Positions 29,002 to 40,634 of a stretch of 49,574 nt of DNA are shown piece by piece. Every line of letters starts with the position of its first letter. Position 1 is the stretch's first letter. Location of the stretch: assembly GCA_001303955.1 (NCBI GenBank), contig LJUP01000005.1:1-49574 (forward strand). The letters run 5' to 3'. The notes under the pieces are model-generated. The model was not told the DNA's origin and searched no databases. It saw only the letters and a program-made list of their open reading frames with translations. The position numbers and the translations under genes are program-made. The stretch comes from Bacteroides sp. SM23_62 (lineage in GTDB: Bacteria; Bacteroidota; Bacteroidia; Bacteroidales; SM23-62).

Positions 29002-29309
29002 TTGATATTGTTACGGTTTGTTTTCATTTTCATCAGTACCGGCAAACTTCCTGCCAATGGAATAAATCTCTAAAACCTGTCATTTTGACCCACAAACCAC
29101 TGAAATTCATGCCATTGTGGCATTGTTCGTTTTCGTGCGGACCTGTATCATTAGCGGTCAGTTGAAAGGAAGGCTCTCAGGCAATAATAATCAGTCTTTT
29201 AATAAATTATGAAAATTGGCATGAATCCTGAGGTAATTCACTGTTATTCCATCCGGCAATCACTGTTCTCCTGTCATTGCATCAAATAAATTCAAACATT
29301 TCAAGGGTT
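29002..29309. other. 308-base divergent intergenic region between clpB and the retropepsin gene
   Basis: No coding frame with plausible composition is seen on either strand and no tRNA-like fold was recognised. The region contains the paired dyads at 29078-29123 on the clpB side. Neither strand has an exact TAnnTTTG box, which is unusual for this window and fits use of an alternative sigma factor for clpB. Confidence 0.5.
29078..29123 (-). promoter_or_regulatory. Two matched dyads upstream of clpB (TGNCA-N3-TGNCA type)
   Basis: Read on the plus strand, TGTCA-TTT-TGACC (29078-29090, one end mismatch) and ATGCCA-TTG-TGGCAT (29109-29123, perfect) share the form TG(T/C)CA-N3-TG(A/G)C. Their centres are 32 bases apart, about three helical turns, so a dimeric regulator could bind both on the same face. 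They lie 77-122 bases before the clpB start. A regulatory role in stress control is inferred, not shown. Confidence 0.4.
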
Positions 29310-30563
29310 ATGCTACCACTGAGGCATATCTGTTTCCTGGGCTTGCTCATCATGGGCCAATCAGCTATGGCACAGGATGTTCTCACTGGAGATAAACCAG
29401 TTACCTACGGATGGGACCAGGGCCGTATGATCATGCCGTTCAGGACGGTAAACGAGCTCATCCTCATACCCGTTCAGATCAATGGTTCTGACACTTTACA
29501 GTTTATATTTGACACGGGACTTGAAAATTCCATCATATGTGAACTGGAAGCAGATGAGGTACTCGAACTCAAGCATGCAAGGGAGGTCCAGGTCAGGGGA
29601 ATCGGATCCGGTAACAAGATTGACGCCATTCAATCAAAGGGTAACAGCCTGAGGGTTGGGGATGTGACCATTCCGGACCAGGATTACGTTATCCTTTCCA
29701 ATAATGTATGGCAACTTTCCCGCAAGATGGGCACAAGGATACATGGCCTGCTGAACATGCATGCATTTGAGCAGTACATAATCGCCATTGATTATGACAG
29801 GAGGCATCTGACCTTTTATCAACCCGGATATTTCAGGCGGCATGAAAACCTTGACGGATACACGTCCTTCCAGGTGGATATCTGCATGGGGGCGCCATGT
29901 ATTGATGCGACCATCCATACCGTCAGCAGCAGCTCCTACCCGGTGAAGCTCATGCTTGATACTGGTGCGGGCAACGCATTGAGCCTGGACACTGGTTCCC
30001 TGCCCGGATACTCCATTCCTGAAGGAAGCCGGGATTGTTATATTGGCTGCAGTATCAACGGTAATATAAAAGGAAAAATTGGCAGGATAAAAGGAATGGA
30101 TATCGGTCCCTATCACCTGCAGGATGTGCTGGTTTCTTACCCCGATCCACAGGCAGCTGCACCGGGTGAAGCTGGACAGGGGCCAAATGGCAGCCTGGGT
30201 GCTGAACTGCTCAGGCGCTTCAATTTGATCATTGACTACCCTGACAAAAAGATACATATCATGGCCAACAGCGCCTATGACGATGAATTTCGTTACGATA
30301 TGAGTGGCATTGAGCTAATGGTTCCGGTCCCATATGAACATCGCTACATCATTAGCGGTATCCGCGAGCAATCAAAAGCAGCGCTGGCAGGTATCAGGCC
30401 CGGGGACGAGATCCTCACCATCAATGGTACCCCTTCCGACCAGCTGAGCCTGGATGATATTTACAAAAGCTTGCTCGGGAATGATGGCAAAAAGATCAGG
30501 CTGGAATTATTGAGGGAGGGTGAAAAGATAAGGGCCAGTTTCCGCCTCGAAAAATATATCTGA
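29310..30563 (+). CDS. Exported retropepsin-like aspartyl protease with PDZ domain
   Basis: A 417-residue protein with a signal peptide (MLPLRHICFLGLLIMGQSAMAQ). It has two aspartyl-protease lobes, FIFDTGLENSIICEL (Asp68) and VKLMLDTGAGNALSLDTGSL (Asp217), each with the catalytic D-T-G, followed by LGAELLRRFNLIIDYPDKKIHIM. A C-terminal PDZ domain (~345-415, YIISGIREQSKAALAGIRPGDEILTINGTPSDQLS) completes it. The double DTG means one chain can form the active site without dimerising. This arrangement is common among uncharacterised periplasmic proteins of Bacteroidota. The track's TTG start adds a tail that would bury the signal peptide; ATG 29310 is chosen. Substrates unknown. Confidence 0.87.
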   Translation: MLPLRHICFLGLLIMGQSAMAQDVLTGDKPVTYGWDQGRMIMPFRTVNELILIPVQINGSDTLQFIFDTGLENSIICELEADEVLELKHAREVQVRGIGSGNKIDAIQSKGNSLRVGDVTIPDQDYVILSNNVWQLSRKMGTRIHGLLNMHAFEQYIIAIDYDRRHLTFYQPGYFRRHENLDGYTSFQVDICMGAPCIDATIHTVSSSSYPVKLMLDTGAGNALSLDTGSLPGYSIPEGSRDCYIGCSINGNIKGKIGRIKGMDIGPYHLQDVLVSYPDPQAAAPGEAGQGPNGSLGAELLRRFNLIIDYPDKKIHIMANSAYDDEFRYDMSGIELMVPVPYEHRYIISGIREQSKAALAGIRPGDEILTINGTPSDQLSLDDIYKSLLGNDGKKIRLELLREGEKIRASFRLEKYI

Positions 30564-30651
30564 GCAAACCTGCATCAAAAACACTTTCTTTTTTTTGAGT
30601 TATTCATTCTCTTTCGCTTTTTTTGCAGTCGCAAACCAAAATGAATCCATT

Positions 30652-31266
30652 ATGACGACCAGAATTTTCAGCCTGTTTATATTGCTTGTCCTGGCAATTT
30701 CCTGTGGACAACAAACCGGTAAAACCGCAGACCTTGGGGAATTGGAATTATCTGAAGTGACCGTCCAATCACTCCTTGCAGATGCATCGCCATTCGTTGA
30801 AAAACCCGTATCCATCCAGGGAAGGGTTGTTCATGTTTGCCGTCATGGCGGACAGCGTTTATTTATCGTTGGCGAGGACGGAGAAGATCGCTTTCGCATC
30901 ACGGTGGGTGAAAATATATCTGAATTCGATGTCGAGCTGGAGGGCAGTATGATTGAGGTAAACGGTATTGTCAAGGAATTGATCATCGATGAAACTTACC
31001 TGGCCGAATGGGAGGCTGAAGTTACGGAAGGTTCAAAACACAGCCGCGGGGAAGGACATGCAGGCGGTGTAGGAAATGGTGACAACCATGGTGGGGTCCA
31101 GGTTGCTGACGGTGAAGAAGCGGAAGGGGAACACGACGCTGAAATGCAGATGGCAGCACAGCTGAAAAGAATACAGGAAGCAAGGGATGAAATTGCAGCA
31201 AGCGGCAAAGACCATCTCTCAGACTACTGGATTGAAACCGTAGAATTCAAGGTCATTGCAGAATAG
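30652..31266 (+). CDS. OB-fold-like lipoprotein with His-rich insert
   Basis: About 204 residues starting with a lipoprotein signal (MTTRIFSLFILLVLAISCGQQ, acylated Cys18). The core VEKPVSIQGRVVHVCRHGGQRLFIVGEDGEDRFRITVGENISEFDVELEGSMIEVNGIVKELIIDETYLAEWE reads as an OB-fold barrel, with a C-x-H pair in HVCRHGG that could bind metal. It is followed by a Gly/His/Glu-rich stretch (SKHSRGEGHAGGVGNGDNHGGV...GEHDAEM) and a helical tail ending YWIETVEFKVI. I recognise the core as a family of unknown function in Bacteroidales. ATG 30652 gives the lipobox; the track start at 30595 does not. The PepSY-TM gene follows 34 bases later. Confidence 0.75.
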   Translation: MTTRIFSLFILLVLAISCGQQTGKTADLGELELSEVTVQSLLADASPFVEKPVSIQGRVVHVCRHGGQRLFIVGEDGEDRFRITVGENISEFDVELEGSMIEVNGIVKELIIDETYLAEWEAEVTEGSKHSRGEGHAGGVGNGDNHGGVQVADGEEAEGEHDAEMQMAAQLKRIQEARDEIAASGKDHLSDYWIETVEFKVIAE

Positions 31267-31912: not shown

Positions 31913-34900
31913 ATGAGTGAACAGATACTGAAGGCCCTGATGCAGCTTTTCGCCATTATTGCAAGGCCTGATAGTAGCAGGAGTGACAGGAGGACTGTTG
32001 TTGAAGCTTATCTGCAAAAGCAGCTGAACCACGAGATCGTTCAGGAATACCTGAAGGTATTTGACGAATACTATACACTTCACCAGGAAAAGCAAAAGGA
32101 ATCCGATAAAAGGGCCAGGAGGATTTCCGCCAGTTCTGTCAGGGTACTTAAGATCGCAACTGCCATCAATGAGGAACTTGCACAGCCACAGAAGATCATT
32201 GTGCTGATCCGTCTGCTCGAATTTGTCAGATCGGACAATGGAGAGATTACGGAACAGGAGATGGAATTCATCAGCACTGTGTCTGAGACCTTTAATGTGC
32301 TGGAGGAGGAATATGAGCAGATCAGGAACTTTGTGTTGTTTTCCCCTGAAGATGTCCCGGACAATGAAGACATCATGATGATTGACAGCAACCGGGATTT
32401 TAACCTGGAAAAATCCAAACATATTTATATTGAATCGATCAGGGGACAAATGAGGGTGTTGCATGTACCGAGTGCCAGGCTGTATTTTATCAGGTATATC
32501 GGTGAGAGTGAAATGTACATCAACAGTCAGTTGATCCAGGTGGATAAGGTATATGTGCTGAGCAGCGGTTCTTCGATCAAGAGCCAGCAGATCAAGCCCA
32601 TTTACTACAGCGATATCGTCAGCCGTTTCCAGCTTGACAAGATCAAGGACCGGATCACCTTTGAGGTCAGTAATGTGGAATACCGCTTCAAGAGCGGCGA
32701 GACAGGCTTACATAAGCTCAGCTTGAAGGAAGAATCCGGAAGGATGGTTGGCATCATGGGTGCCAGTGGTGCAGGAAAGTCAACCCTGTTGAACGTCCTG
32801 AACGGATCGGTCCCTCCCACCTCGGGCAGGGTACTTATCAACGGGGTGAACATATTCACGGAAAAAGAGAGGATCGAGGGGATTATCGGGCATGTATCCC
32901 AGGACGACCTGCTGATTGAAGAGTTGACGGTTTACCAGAACCTGTATTACAATGCCAAGCTGTGTTTTGATAATTATTCAGAAGAGCAGATCGTTGAATC
33001 GGTAAACCAAACCCTCGAAAACCTTGGATTATTTGAGATCCGTGATATACAGGTTGGCAGTCCCCTGAACAAGAAAATCAGCGGTGGCCAGCGGAAAAGG
33101 CTTAATATTGCGCTAGAATTGATCAGGGAACCATCCGTACTGTTCCTGGATGAACCTACCTCAGGCTTGTCTTCCAGGGATTCGGAAAACATCATGGACC
33201 TGCTGAAAGAACTCTCCCTGAAAGGAAAACTCGTTTTTGTAGTCATCCACCAGCCTTCTTCGGATATCTTCAAGATGTTTGACAATATGATCATCCTGGA
33301 TACGGGCGGTTGGATGATCTACGACGGAGATCCCATTGAGTCCATTGTCTATTTCAAAGAAAGGATACACCATGCCAATTGTAATGAAAGTGAGTGCCAG
33401 GTTTGCGGTAATGTGAATCCCGAACAGATCTTTAACATTGTTGAATCCAATGTAATCGATGAATATGGCAAGGCTACCAAGGTAAGGAAGATCTCCCCGA
33501 AAGAATGGCACGATCATTATTTGAAGAGGGAGTTGAAAAACGGCAGGAACTTTGAGCAGCATACCACCTTACCTGAGATCTCATTTAAAATCCCTGACAG
33601 ACTGAAACAATTACTGATCTTTGTCAAGCGAGATGTGCTGTCCAAGCTTTCAAACACCCAATACATGGTGATCAATTTCCTGGAAGCACCCTTACTGGCT
33701 TTCCTGCTGGCATATATCATCAAGTATTTTAATGTCAATGTCACCAATGTTCACGGTTACAACCTTGAAGGAAACGCCAACCTTCCCGTTTATATCTTTA
33801 TGTCTGTGATCGTTGCCATTTTCATGGGACTCACAGGCAGTGCCGAGGAGATCATAAAGGACCGGAAGATCAAAAAGAGGGAAGCTTTCCTGAACCTGAG
33901 CCGCTCAGGATACCTGCTTTCGAAGGTTGCCGTCCTGATGACCCTCTCAGCCATACAGGCCCTTTTGTTCGTGGTGATCGGCAACAGCATTATGGAGATC
34001 AAAGACATGTACTGGCAATACTGGCTGGCCCTTTTCAGTGCCTGGGTCTCATCCAACCTGATGGGACTGGTCATTTCAGACAGTTTCAAGACCGTGGTAA
34101 CCATCTATATCCTGATCCCTTTTCTGGTCATACCACAGATTATCCTGAGCGGAGTCATCGTAAAGTATGAGAAACTTAATCCAAAAATATCCTCTCCTAC
34201 CAGTATCCCGCTTTACGGTGAGATCATGACCGCCCGGTGGGCATACGAGGCCCTTGCAACCTACCAGTTCATGAACAATGATTACCAGTCTCAGTTCTAT
34301 CTATATGACAAGGTAATGAGCGAGGCCGGATACCGTAAGGACTACTGGACCATGGATCTGCTGAACAAGGTGGAAAGCATAGCACGGAATCTGCAAGATC
34401 CTGAAAAAGCCGAAGTCATTAAGCAACACCTCACCCTCCTCAGGGATGAAATCGGAGATGAACTGAAAAACAATTCACTCATCCCTTTTGATCACCTGGC
34501 GGACCTCACCCCCGAAAGGATCAGCGAAGATATACTCAATTCAACACGTAACTACCTGAACGATATCAGAGGGTACAATATTAAATTATACAATAAGGCC
34601 AATTCCAAGAAAGATAAACTAACCAAGGAACTTCAGCAAACCGAGGAAGAAAAGGAAGCGTTCTACAAGACAAAGCGGGAGCAGAACAATGAATCACTGG
34701 AAGAATTTGTGAAGAATTCCAATGTCAGGGACCGGATCATTCAGTACAAAAACCACCTGTACCAGAAAATCAATCCAATCTATATGGATCCGGAACATAA
34801 ACTGATAAAAGCACACTTCTACGCACCAAGAAAGCAGGTTTTCGGTAACTTTTTCAGCACTTTCGCTGTCAATATCACTGTCATTTGGATTATGACACTG

Positions 34901-34990
34901 ATCTTCTACATGATTCTCTACTACAGACTACTGAAGAAATTCCTCGATTTCTTCGAACAATTTAGCCATCGCAATAAACGGGAAGGTTGA
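31913..34990 (+). CDS. Large ABCG-like ABC half-transporter with TerB/FHA-like N-terminus and Cys cluster
   Basis: A 1025-residue protein. Residues 1-145 form a helical domain resembling TerB/tellurite-resistance folds (LMQLFAIIARPDSSRSDRRTVVEAYLQKQL); 160-250 is a beta-rich, FHA-like stretch (KSHIYIES.. VLHVPSARLYFIRYIGESEMYINSQ). The ABC domain has Walker A GASGAGKST (~285), signature ISGGQRKRL (~389) and VLFLDEPTSGLSSRDSENI (~408), an ABCG pattern. A four-ligand-like HHANCNESECQVCGN follows (~487). The ABC2-type membrane part (~585-745) has about six helices; after a soluble region with coiled coil (~890-930) a final helix (FSTFAVNITVIWIMTLIFYMILYY) lies near 980. The exporter substrate is unknown. 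It precedes the convergent siaBC genes. Confidence 0.85.
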   Translation: MSEQILKALMQLFAIIARPDSSRSDRRTVVEAYLQKQLNHEIVQEYLKVFDEYYTLHQEKQKESDKRARRISASSVRVLKIATAINEELAQPQKIIVLIRLLEFVRSDNGEITEQEMEFISTVSETFNVLEEEYEQIRNFVLFSPEDVPDNEDIMMIDSNRDFNLEKSKHIYIESIRGQMRVLHVPSARLYFIRYIGESEMYINSQLIQVDKVYVLSSGSSIKSQQIKPIYYSDIVSRFQLDKIKDRITFEVSNVEYRFKSGETGLHKLSLKEESGRMVGIMGASGAGKSTLLNVLNGSVPPTSGRVLINGVNIFTEKERIEGIIGHVSQDDLLIEELTVYQNLYYNAKLCFDNYSEEQIVESVNQTLENLGLFEIRDIQVGSPLNKKISGGQRKRLNIALELIREPSVLFLDEPTSGLSSRDSENIMDLLKELSLKGKLVFVVIHQPSSDIFKMFDNMIILDTGGWMIYDGDPIESIVYFKERIHHANCNESECQVCGNVNPEQIFNIVESNVIDEYGKATKVRKISPKEWHDHYLKRELKNGRNFEQHTTLPEISFKIPDRLKQLLIFVKRDVLSKLSNTQYMVINFLEAPLLAFLLAYIIKYFNVNVTNVHGYNLEGNANLPVYIFMSVIVAIFMGLTGSAEEIIKDRKIKKREAFLNLSRSGYLLSKVAVLMTLSAIQALLFVVIGNSIMEIKDMYWQYWLALFSAWVSSNLMGLVISDSFKTVVTIYILIPFLVIPQIILSGVIVKYEKLNPKISSPTSIPLYGEIMTARWAYEALATYQFMNNDYQSQFYLYDKVMSEAGYRKDYWTMDLLNKVESIARNLQDPEKAEVIKQHLTLLRDEIGDELKNNSLIPFDHLADLTPERISEDILNSTRNYLNDIRGYNIKLYNKANSKKDKLTKELQQTEEEKEAFYKTKREQNNESLEEFVKNSNVRDRIIQYKNHLYQKINPIYMDPEHKLIKAHFYAPRKQVFGNFFSTFAVNITVIWIMTLIFYMILYYRLLKKFLDFFEQFSHRNKREG

Positions 34991-35135: not shown

Positions 35136-35516
35136 CTATTCTACTATTTCAATCATTTTGAAGGGGACCCTGATGATGGATTCATAATCCTCGCCGGCTT
35201 CCAGCATATCTTCATCGTCTTCTTCATAGTACCAGTTTATCACCACTTCGTTCTTGGCTTTATGGATGGATTCCAGCTTCTTGAATACATCCAGGATGCA
35301 TTTGGAAGAACTGGTGTTGAAATACTCCAGCTGTACATTTACAGTTGTTTTATCCATTGGTCTTTTCGCGTATTCCTCCAGCCAATCAACCAAGGGCTTG
35401 TAAAACTCAATAGAATTTTCCGGGATTGATCGCCCTTTGATCTCTATTTTCCCAGATCCTGCGTCAAACTTTACAGTTGGTGTCTTTGTTGTACCTTCGA
35501 TTGAAATTGGTTCCAT
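35136..35516 (-). CDS. siaC: SiaC family regulatory phosphoprotein (DUF1987), canonical Thr site
   Basis: A 126-residue small regulator. Family landmarks: TPTVKFDAGSGKIEIKGRSIPENSIEFYKPLVDWLEEY, the phosphosite LEYFNTSSSKCILDVFKKLE, and VVINWYYEEDDEDMLEAGEDYESI. Starting at ATG 35516 rather than the track's GTG 35519, the Thr of NTSS is residue 68, the same number as the SiaB-phosphorylated Thr68 of Pseudomonas aeruginosa SiaC. In that system unphosphorylated SiaC activates the diguanylate cyclase SiaD to control aggregation. No siaD or siaA gene is in the window, so the output partner is unknown. It follows siaB by 20 bases and precedes a strong terminator. Confidence 0.93.
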   Translation of the reverse strand: MEPISIEGTTKTPTVKFDAGSGKIEIKGRSIPENSIEFYKPLVDWLEEYAKRPMDKTTVNVQLEYFNTSSSKCILDVFKKLESIHKAKNEVVINWYYEEDDEDMLEAGEDYESIIRVPFKMIEIVE

Positions 35517-35536
35517 CACTATTAAAATATTTTTAA

Positions 35537-36094
35537 TTAGTTTTCTTCGGTTATATAAACATCCAGGTTAAAGAAATAATAATCATCCTGGTAATGCTGA
35601 AAGGTATACTCCAGCTTGTTTCCTGTTTTTCGTGCAATATCAACAAGACCAAGTCCACCGCCACCTTTTGCGGAGAGCTTCTGGTGATTCAGAATGAACT
35701 TGTACATGTCTTTCAGTTCATCCATTGACAGCGAATTGATCTTATCAATCTTATCTTTCAGGAATTTAATCTTCTCTGAACTGATAAAATTGCCCGTTGA
35801 AATCCGGTATGCCTTATTCTCACGGGAGACAACCAGTATTCCGAACTTTGATTCAAAATCGTTTTTCAAATTATCCGGCAGTTCCTCGATGTGATGATAG
35901 AGGTTCTGCAGGCTTTCAACCAGCACGTTGTACACCTTCTTCTTTATCTTGGCCTGTTCATCCACACCATCCATCTTCTCCTCAATCTCTTCCAGTACAT
36001 TATTGATCAGGTCAGTGGTGATACTACCTTTAAAGGCAACCAGAACATCTCCGCCGTTCAATTTGGAAAAATACTCATGAACATCAAAGCTCAT
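35537..36094 (-). CDS. siaB: SiaB family protein kinase (DUF6272)
   Basis: A 185-residue GHKL-fold serine/threonine kinase-like protein. It starts MSFDVHEYFSKLNGGDVLVAFKGSITTDLINNVLEEIE, carries the N-box-like KVYNVLVESLQNLYHHIEELP that would hold ATP-Mg, and ends with the Gly-rich ATP lid KGGGGLGLVDIARKTGNKLEYTF. By analogy with SiaB it phosphorylates SiaC on the NTSS threonine, switching it off. Directly upstream of siaC in the same transcript, which supports the pairing. A -7 box lies 58 bases upstream and an inverted repeat sits where the -33 box would be. Confidence 0.92.
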   Translation of the reverse strand: MSFDVHEYFSKLNGGDVLVAFKGSITTDLINNVLEEIEEKMDGVDEQAKIKKKVYNVLVESLQNLYHHIEELPDNLKNDFESKFGILVVSRENKAYRISTGNFISSEKIKFLKDKIDKINSLSMDELKDMYKFILNHQKLSAKGGGGLGLVDIARKTGNKLEYTFQHYQDDYYFFNLDVYITEEN

Positions 36095-40229: not shown

Positions 40230-40634
40230 TCAGTCTTTTAATACCTTGAATTGAAAGGTCACCCCGGTTAATTCTGCAAGATCCTTGCCATTTTCGAGGA
40301 TATGAAGGTCTTCTTCTTCATAATACCAGTCAATCACGGTATCGGTCTGAATATCAGCTATCATCCTCAACTTCTGCAAAATAAAAATCAGCATCCTAAC
40401 GGAACCGGAATTGTAATAGGTCATTTTGAAGGATACCTTTGGAGCGGGAAAAGAAAACTGGTTCTCAACCTTCCTTATGGCAGCGAGATAGGCATCGAGC
40501 CATTCCAGCACAGGCATGTAGAATGCAAACAGGTCTTCCGGGAGGGATATTCCCTCAAATTCGAAAATACCGGCACCGGGATCCAGGAGGATCCTCGGTG
40601 TATGGTTTTTCTCAGGAATCTGAAGGATTTCCAT
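40230..40634 (-). CDS. SiaC-like protein (DUF1987), divergent phosphosite
   Basis: A 134-residue paralogue of the siaC product encoded at 35136. It keeps the frame of the family: TPRILLDPGAGIFEFEGISLPEDLFAFYMPVLEWLDAYL, then VSFKMTYYNSGSVRMLIFILQKLRMI, and TVIDWYYEEEDLHILENGKDLAELTG. The NTSS phosphosite of the first copy reads NSGS here, so the acceptor Thr is replaced by Ser76 and the next residue by Gly. No SiaB gene is adjacent; the nearest is 4.5 kb away. It may compete for the same kinase or be a non-switchable variant. It stands between guaA and the S41 protease. Confidence 0.85.
   Translation of the reverse strand: MEILQIPEKNHTPRILLDPGAGIFEFEGISLPEDLFAFYMPVLEWLDAYLAAIRKVENQFSFPAPKVSFKMTYYNSGSVRMLIFILQKLRMIADIQTDTVIDWYYEEEDLHILENGKDLAELTGVTFQFKVLKD

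Follow-up and report, generated by a model that had tools for sequence, protein, structure and literature searches.

A TerB/FHA-like ABCG-type half-transporter genomically linked to the SiaB-SiaC phosphorylation pair in Bacteroidota

Results

Genes and domain architecture of the locus

The stretch analysed here (hereafter, the window) comprises 49,574 nt of Bacteroides sp. SM23_62 (assembly GCA_001303955.1, contig LJUP01000005.1, positions 1-49,574, forward strand). An open reading frame at 31913..34990 (+), reported in a first-pass annotation of the sequence and found here to be real, encodes a 1025-aa TerB-FHA-like ABCG-type half-transporter with four paralogues in the same genome. Directly upstream lies a gene for a PepSY-TM-like protein (PF16357; 31301..31855, +) that is conserved only beside the nearest orthologues of the window gene, and before it a gene for a predicted lipoprotein with weak OB-fold similarity (30595..31266, +), also present upstream in the nearest orthologues only. 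The window additionally encodes a secreted retropepsin-like aspartyl protease with a PDZ domain (29277-30563, +). On the opposite strand, downstream of the transporter gene, lie siaC (35136..35519, -), encoding a SiaC-family phosphoprotein, and siaB (35537..36094, -), encoding a SiaB-family protein kinase.

Pfam searches and structure modeling resolve the 1025-aa protein into four parts, from the N-terminus onward: a helical domain of TerB type, an FHA fold, the ABCG-type ATPase and the permease. Pfam matches cover TerB (residues 41-139), ABC_tran (266-417) and ABC2_membrane (566-759), so that the nucleotide-binding domain (NBD) precedes the transmembrane domain (TMD) in one chain, as in a half-transporter. 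The full-length AlphaFold model (pLDDT 86.8) returned ABCG5/G8, ABCG2, ABCG1, ABCG16, ABCG25 and Cdr1 as its best Foldseek matches in the PDB, with TM-scores by target mostly of 0.65-0.78; a few of the first 50 matches were entries for Cdr1, a PDR transporter and full-length ABCG relative. The closest named NCBIfam model was the pigment-precursor (ABCG/white) permease TIGR00955, although the score fell far below its cut-off. The ABCG-type assignment made from the sequence alone is upheld by the two Pfam domains and by the ABCG chains heading the structural matches, and the transporter is probably homodimeric.

A TerB-like domain and a degenerate FHA fold precede the ATPase

The N-terminal region had been described as TerB-like and beta-rich, with an FHA fold suspected. 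Residues 41-139 match TerB (PF05099) with E=5e-6 and 27.2 bits, above the Pfam gathering score of 24.4, and a TerB match at E<=1 is obtained for 32 of the 41 family members, confirming the TerB-like assignment; deeper homologues score 39-44 bits. In the AlphaFold2 model computed for residues 1-250 from 41 sequences (pLDDT 84), a beta domain comes after seven helices. The TerB-like seven-helix domain, delimited by the Pfam match, the modeled helices and Foldseek, spans residues 3-142 (31919..32338, +), and the FHA-fold domain, delimited by Foldseek, residues 152-240 (32366..32632, +). FHA domains or FHA-containing proteins made up 49 of the 50 best Foldseek matches of the N-terminal model in the PDB; the best of them had E=0.0075 and a probability of about 1.0, with modest TM-scores. 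The sole non-FHA entry among the 50 was Porphyromonas gingivalis PG1108 (2h5n), which we take to be a TerB-like protein. Structure prediction and fold search thus bear out the FHA fold, and homology of the modeled beta domain to FHA is likely. Searches by sequence gave neither a Pfam FHA match in the window protein at E<=1 nor anything significant when the N-terminal part was compared with the PDB by sequence profile; a weak match to the MEK1 FHA domain (E about 1) helped set the register only.

The residues with which FHA domains bind phosphothreonine are missing across the family. In the expected stretches of the 41 members, GR occurs in four, SxxH in one and NG[TKSV] in none. Because these residues have been lost, the domain is unlikely to be a canonical phosphothreonine reader, and we rejected a phosphopeptide-reading function for it; a docking role for the degenerate domain is possible. 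This bears on whether the transporter might be controlled in the manner of Mycobacterium tuberculosis Rv1747/PknF, in which a Ser/Thr kinase would phosphorylate a partner protein and the FHA domain would read the mark. Both proteins combine an exporter ATPase-permease with an N-terminal FHA fold and phospho-signaling partners (PMC3908365, PMC5549992), and FHA I of Rv1747 does bind phosphothreonine of Rv2623 (PMC5549992). Rv1747, however, carries two FHA domains, retains all five phosphothreonine-binding residues in FHA I and is partnered by a Ser/Thr kinase (PMC5549992), whereas the window family has one degenerate FHA domain, a TerB domain and SiaB/SiaC partners. Given this loss and the missing Pfam match in the window protein, we regard classical phosphopeptide control as very unlikely. 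Phosphopeptide-controlled export, as first proposed for this gene, finds no support as it stands, and phospho-control, if any, more likely operates through SiaC phosphorylation.

An intact ATPase followed by a conserved CxxC motif

The NBD (residues 247-484; 32651..33364, +) retains an intact Walker A (GASGAGKST), signature (ISGGQ), Walker B with its catalytic Glu, and switch His. The window protein does contain the HHxxCxxxxCxxC cluster originally noted after the ATPase, but its relatives do not conserve the cluster as a unit. Among 37 aligned sequences, the HH and first Cys are free to vary and few relatives have them, Trp being common at the position of the first Cys; the only residues of the region conserved at >=90% are C495, C498, G499, N500 and P503. 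What survives is a near-invariant ECxxCGN(V)NPE(Q)(I/V)(F/L) sequence, represented in the window protein by ECxxCGNVNPEQIFNIVE at residues 494-511 (33392..33445, +) and kept as ECPVCKNVEPD in remote homologues, about 1200 residues long, that lie outside the class. A conserved Cys/His metal site was therefore rejected as originally written, the ligands other than the CxxC varying in orthologues.

The motif that follows the CxxC is the likely counterpart of NPxDF, an ABCG-specific element located at residues 289-293 of ABCG2, where it makes a constant NBD-NBD contact (PMC7037313, PMC8100176). The alignment to ABCG2 ends at residue 490 of the window protein and residue 286 of ABCG2, just before NPxDF; beyond that point, the conserved NPEQ(I/V)(F/L) at residues 502-507 keeps the Asn and Pro of the motif with Gln in place of Asp. 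A search of the PDB by sequence with the post-ATPase segment alone gave no useful match. From the aligned sequences we infer that the CxxC would lie at the ABCG-type NPxDF contact of the NBD dimer, where the two CxxC motifs across the dimer could be metal-binding or redox-active. What remains of the metal-site idea is a pair of Cys in each protomer, located at a predicted NBD-dimer contact.

The permease carries an enlarged EL3

A connecting helix and TM1-TM5 occupy residues 563-744 (33599..34144, +) according to the model and the ABC2_membrane match, with TM5 at 728-744 in the full-length model. TM6 (983-1003) and a cytoplasmic C-terminal helix follow at residues 983-1024 (34859..34984, +). 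Between TM5 and TM6 lie about 240 residues, mostly hydrophilic helix (model helices at 792-934), which by ABCG topology are predicted to form an enlarged extracytoplasmic (periplasmic) EL3 of helical, coiled-coil-like character (residues 745-982; 34145..34858, +). The region first read as a soluble coiled-coil block before a lone final helix thus resolves into an enlarged EL3 plus TM6, in the normal ABCG arrangement. The protein therefore resembles eukaryotic ABCG half-transporters (ABCG2, ABCG1, ABCG5/G8) in its NBD-TMD order, its six TM helices, the placing of EL3 after TM5 and before TM6, and a likely NP motif following the NBD, but differs from them in its N-terminal TerB and FHA-like domains, its EL3 of about 240 residues with a helical insert, the CxxC before the NP motif, and the Gln replacing Asp of NPxDF.

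The transporter family is linked to siaBC

Both neighbors across the intergenic region are credible members of their families. Window SiaC matches PF09345 with E=1e-46, above the Pfam cut-off and below the NCBIfam equivalog cut-off, and keeps the phosphosite Thr (YFNTSSSK, compared with LLYLNTSSIK around T68 of Pseudomonas aeruginosa SiaC); SiaB scores 155 bits against the subfamily cut-off of 85 for NF038262 and keeps the N-box-like motif E..QN...H. The pair does adjoin the transporter gene, as had been noted, and is convergent with it, but we found no terminator-like site between the ABC gene and siaC. A second SiaC-family gene, at 40230-40634 (-), lies downstream of GMP synthase with no adjacent siaB (PF09345, E=4e-28) and has NSGS where the phosphosite NTSS would be expected.

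The assembly contains five copies of the transporter family, the other four being 42-45% identical to the window copy. Family members occur in 20 of 41 genomes searched (the source genome and 40 relatives), in 84 of 198 genomes of the order, and in 7 of 297 genomes sampled across the phylum with two candidates scored per genome. Two of the homologues from the same phylum but outside the class (L092 and L093), about 1200 residues long, have a stronger TerB match, the same CPxC-NV-x-P segment and extra N-terminal domains that are FHA-like by eye.

SiaC (PF09345) occurs in 87 of the 198 order genomes. Co-occurrence with the transporter, suggested earlier as a check for siaBC, was confirmed for SiaC in this sample: 79 genomes have both SiaC and the transporter and 106 have neither, with 13 discordant (transporter alone in five, SiaC alone in eight; Fisher p=3e-39, a value inflated by the shared ancestry of the sampled genomes). 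The association extends to gene order. At least 65 of the best 116 transporter genes, from 49 genomes, have siaC within 1.5 kb, 33 with siaC convergent downstream, as in the window, and 32 with siaC co-directional upstream. A tree of 44 transporters separates the convergent (window) type and the operon (co-directional) type into distinct clades, with a small divergent pair in a third, and the SiaC tree splits in the same way, which is uninformative on binding because linked genes share their history. The window pair retains both the SiaC Thr and the SiaB motif, and so do the pairs of the convergent and operon types. In the divergent pair (L047 and L082), where siaB-siaC is transcribed divergently beside the transporter, Ser replaces the SiaC Thr and the SiaB motif is altered; SiaC there may be phosphorylated on Ser, or the pair may be non-catalytic.

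Several observations run against coupling. The convergent siaBC of the window is not co-transcribed with the ABC gene, a third or more of the fetched family loci lack nearby siaBC (many have the lipoprotein described below only), and the divergent clade departs from the usual SiaC and SiaB residues. SiaC copies also outnumber ABC copies in many genomes (eight against five in the source genome), and SiaC proteins must therefore have other outputs too. An ordinary exporter with accessory domains might also come to lie beside siaBC simply through conserved gene order, as the convergent orientation in the window and the extensive gene order shared around the nearest orthologues would allow. We consider this quite unlikely, since the arrangements differ between clades and outside the order, and since genome-level co-occurrence holds also for unlinked genes. 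Coupling of the transporter to siaBC is strongly supported by genomics, from which we infer that the two are functionally coupled and that SiaC may bind the transporter directly.

The operon form resembles a sensory locus

In the co-directional arrangement the genes follow the order CheR, CheB, GAF, GAF/PAS/PP2C phosphatase (SiaA-like), SiaB, SiaC, ABC transporter, lipoprotein (c3) and secreted protein (c6). The C-terminal PP2C part of the operon-type phosphatase has SiaA as its best match (NF038263, 6e-52, below the equivalog cut-off); near the window gene we found no SiaA-like phosphatase. Four loci (L067, L071, L101 and L102) carry the full operon, chemosensory-like in content, and no chemoreceptor gene was seen there. 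Both siaC arrangements, as well as a paralogue accompanied by the lipoprotein only, recur outside the order in families of the same class.

The c3 lipoprotein has 25 members in the fetched loci, with a Cys after the signal peptide in all aligned members, and c6, c13 and c30 are small secreted proteins. Neither the lipoprotein nor the secreted proteins matched a Pfam or NCBIfam family above cut-off, and their PDB matches were chance-like. Members of the lipoprotein family (L057:11097-12002 and relatives) and of the secreted family (L057:10676-11083 and relatives) stand beside the transporter in each of the three clades; next to the window copy there is neither a c3 lipoprotein nor a c6-type secreted protein.

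These partners could alternatively be taken to mean that the transporter is an input to the switch and not a target of SiaC: together with the lipoprotein it would sense or flip an envelope molecule, and its TerB/FHA domains would report to SiaB, SiaC and SiaA by mechanotransmission to the cytosol. The siaBC linkage data fit this reading as well, the CheR, CheB, GAF and PAS proteins make the operon a sensory locus, and a large periplasmic EL3 with a lipoprotein partner would suit a sensor. Yet the PAS/GAF phosphatase supplies an input already, SiaC faces the output in the known P. aeruginosa system (PMC8457831), and the ATPase motifs are fully kept, as for a working pump. An input role is accordingly unlikely.

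Relatives lack the GGDEF effector of the Pseudomonas switch

The P. aeruginosa switch works on the diguanylate cyclase SiaD, which SiaC binds and activates when unphosphorylated; SiaB phosphorylates SiaC at T68 and SiaA reverses the modification (PMC7647112, PMC8457831). No GGDEF domain was found at E<=1e-10 in the 40 relatives, and because GGDEF proteins are absent there, SiaC cannot act through a diguanylate cyclase in these genomes. One GGDEF domain is present in the source assembly (G000:C329:44191-44646), on a contig other than that of the window, in a bin listed as 6% contaminated; this contig is possibly a contaminant.

Discussion

The family brings together two known kinds of system, an ABCG-type exporter and the SiaABC switch. 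Its operon-type loci resemble P. aeruginosa SiaABCD in having a SiaA-like PP2C phosphatase, a SiaB kinase, a SiaC protein with its target Thr conserved, and the operon order A-B-C-effector. They differ in that the TerB-FHA-ABCG transporter sits in the effector position instead of the GGDEF protein SiaD, in the added CheR, CheB and GAF genes, and in the absence of GGDEF proteins from 40 relatives. The linkage and co-occurrence with siaBC lend support to signal-controlled export, which had been suggested on first inspection.

The explanation that we favor as probable is an ABCG-type exporter gated by SiaABC through partner switching. Its TerB-like domain and degenerate FHA domain would together serve as a cytoplasmic docking platform, and the enlarged EL3 would be a periplasmic domain, cooperating across much of the family with the companion lipoprotein and small secreted protein. 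Exporter activity would be set in this way by SiaB as kinase, SiaC as phosphoprotein and the SiaA-like PP2C phosphatase, with the transporter in the place that SiaD holds in P. aeruginosa. When unphosphorylated, SiaC would dock either on the TerB/FHA platform or on the NBD dimer at its CxxC-NPE contact and so change the ATPase cycle; once phosphorylated by SiaB, it would let go. The phosphorylation state of SiaC would then gate the transporter, most simply via TerB/FHA docking. We advance more tentatively, at somewhat less than even chances, a more specific proposal: that in Bacteroidota SiaC, instead of activating a diguanylate cyclase, has been re-wired into a direct, phospho-switched regulator of an ABCG exporter, docking on the TerB/degenerate-FHA domains, and that the CxxC motifs of the two NBDs come together in the dimer as a four-Cys site.

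In the literature searched, which left most subscription journals outside, we found no description of a link between SiaABC and a transporter, and nothing relevant on TerB combined with an ABC transporter or on DUF1987/SiaC in Bacteroidota. In Pseudomonas, SiaABC is known to switch c-di-GMP synthesis through its control of an enzyme that makes a biofilm signal. The family described here, which 79 of the 87 sampled genomes with SiaC in the order carry, is a concrete candidate for the SiaABC output in GGDEF-less Bacteroidota. If the re-wired reading is true, these loci would constitute a signaling-to-export module that brings along a lipoprotein and a secreted protein of its own. The family would also provide a bacterial exporter of ABCG type whose regulatory domains are part of the chain, and thereby a model of control at the constant NBD contact shared by ABCG transporters.
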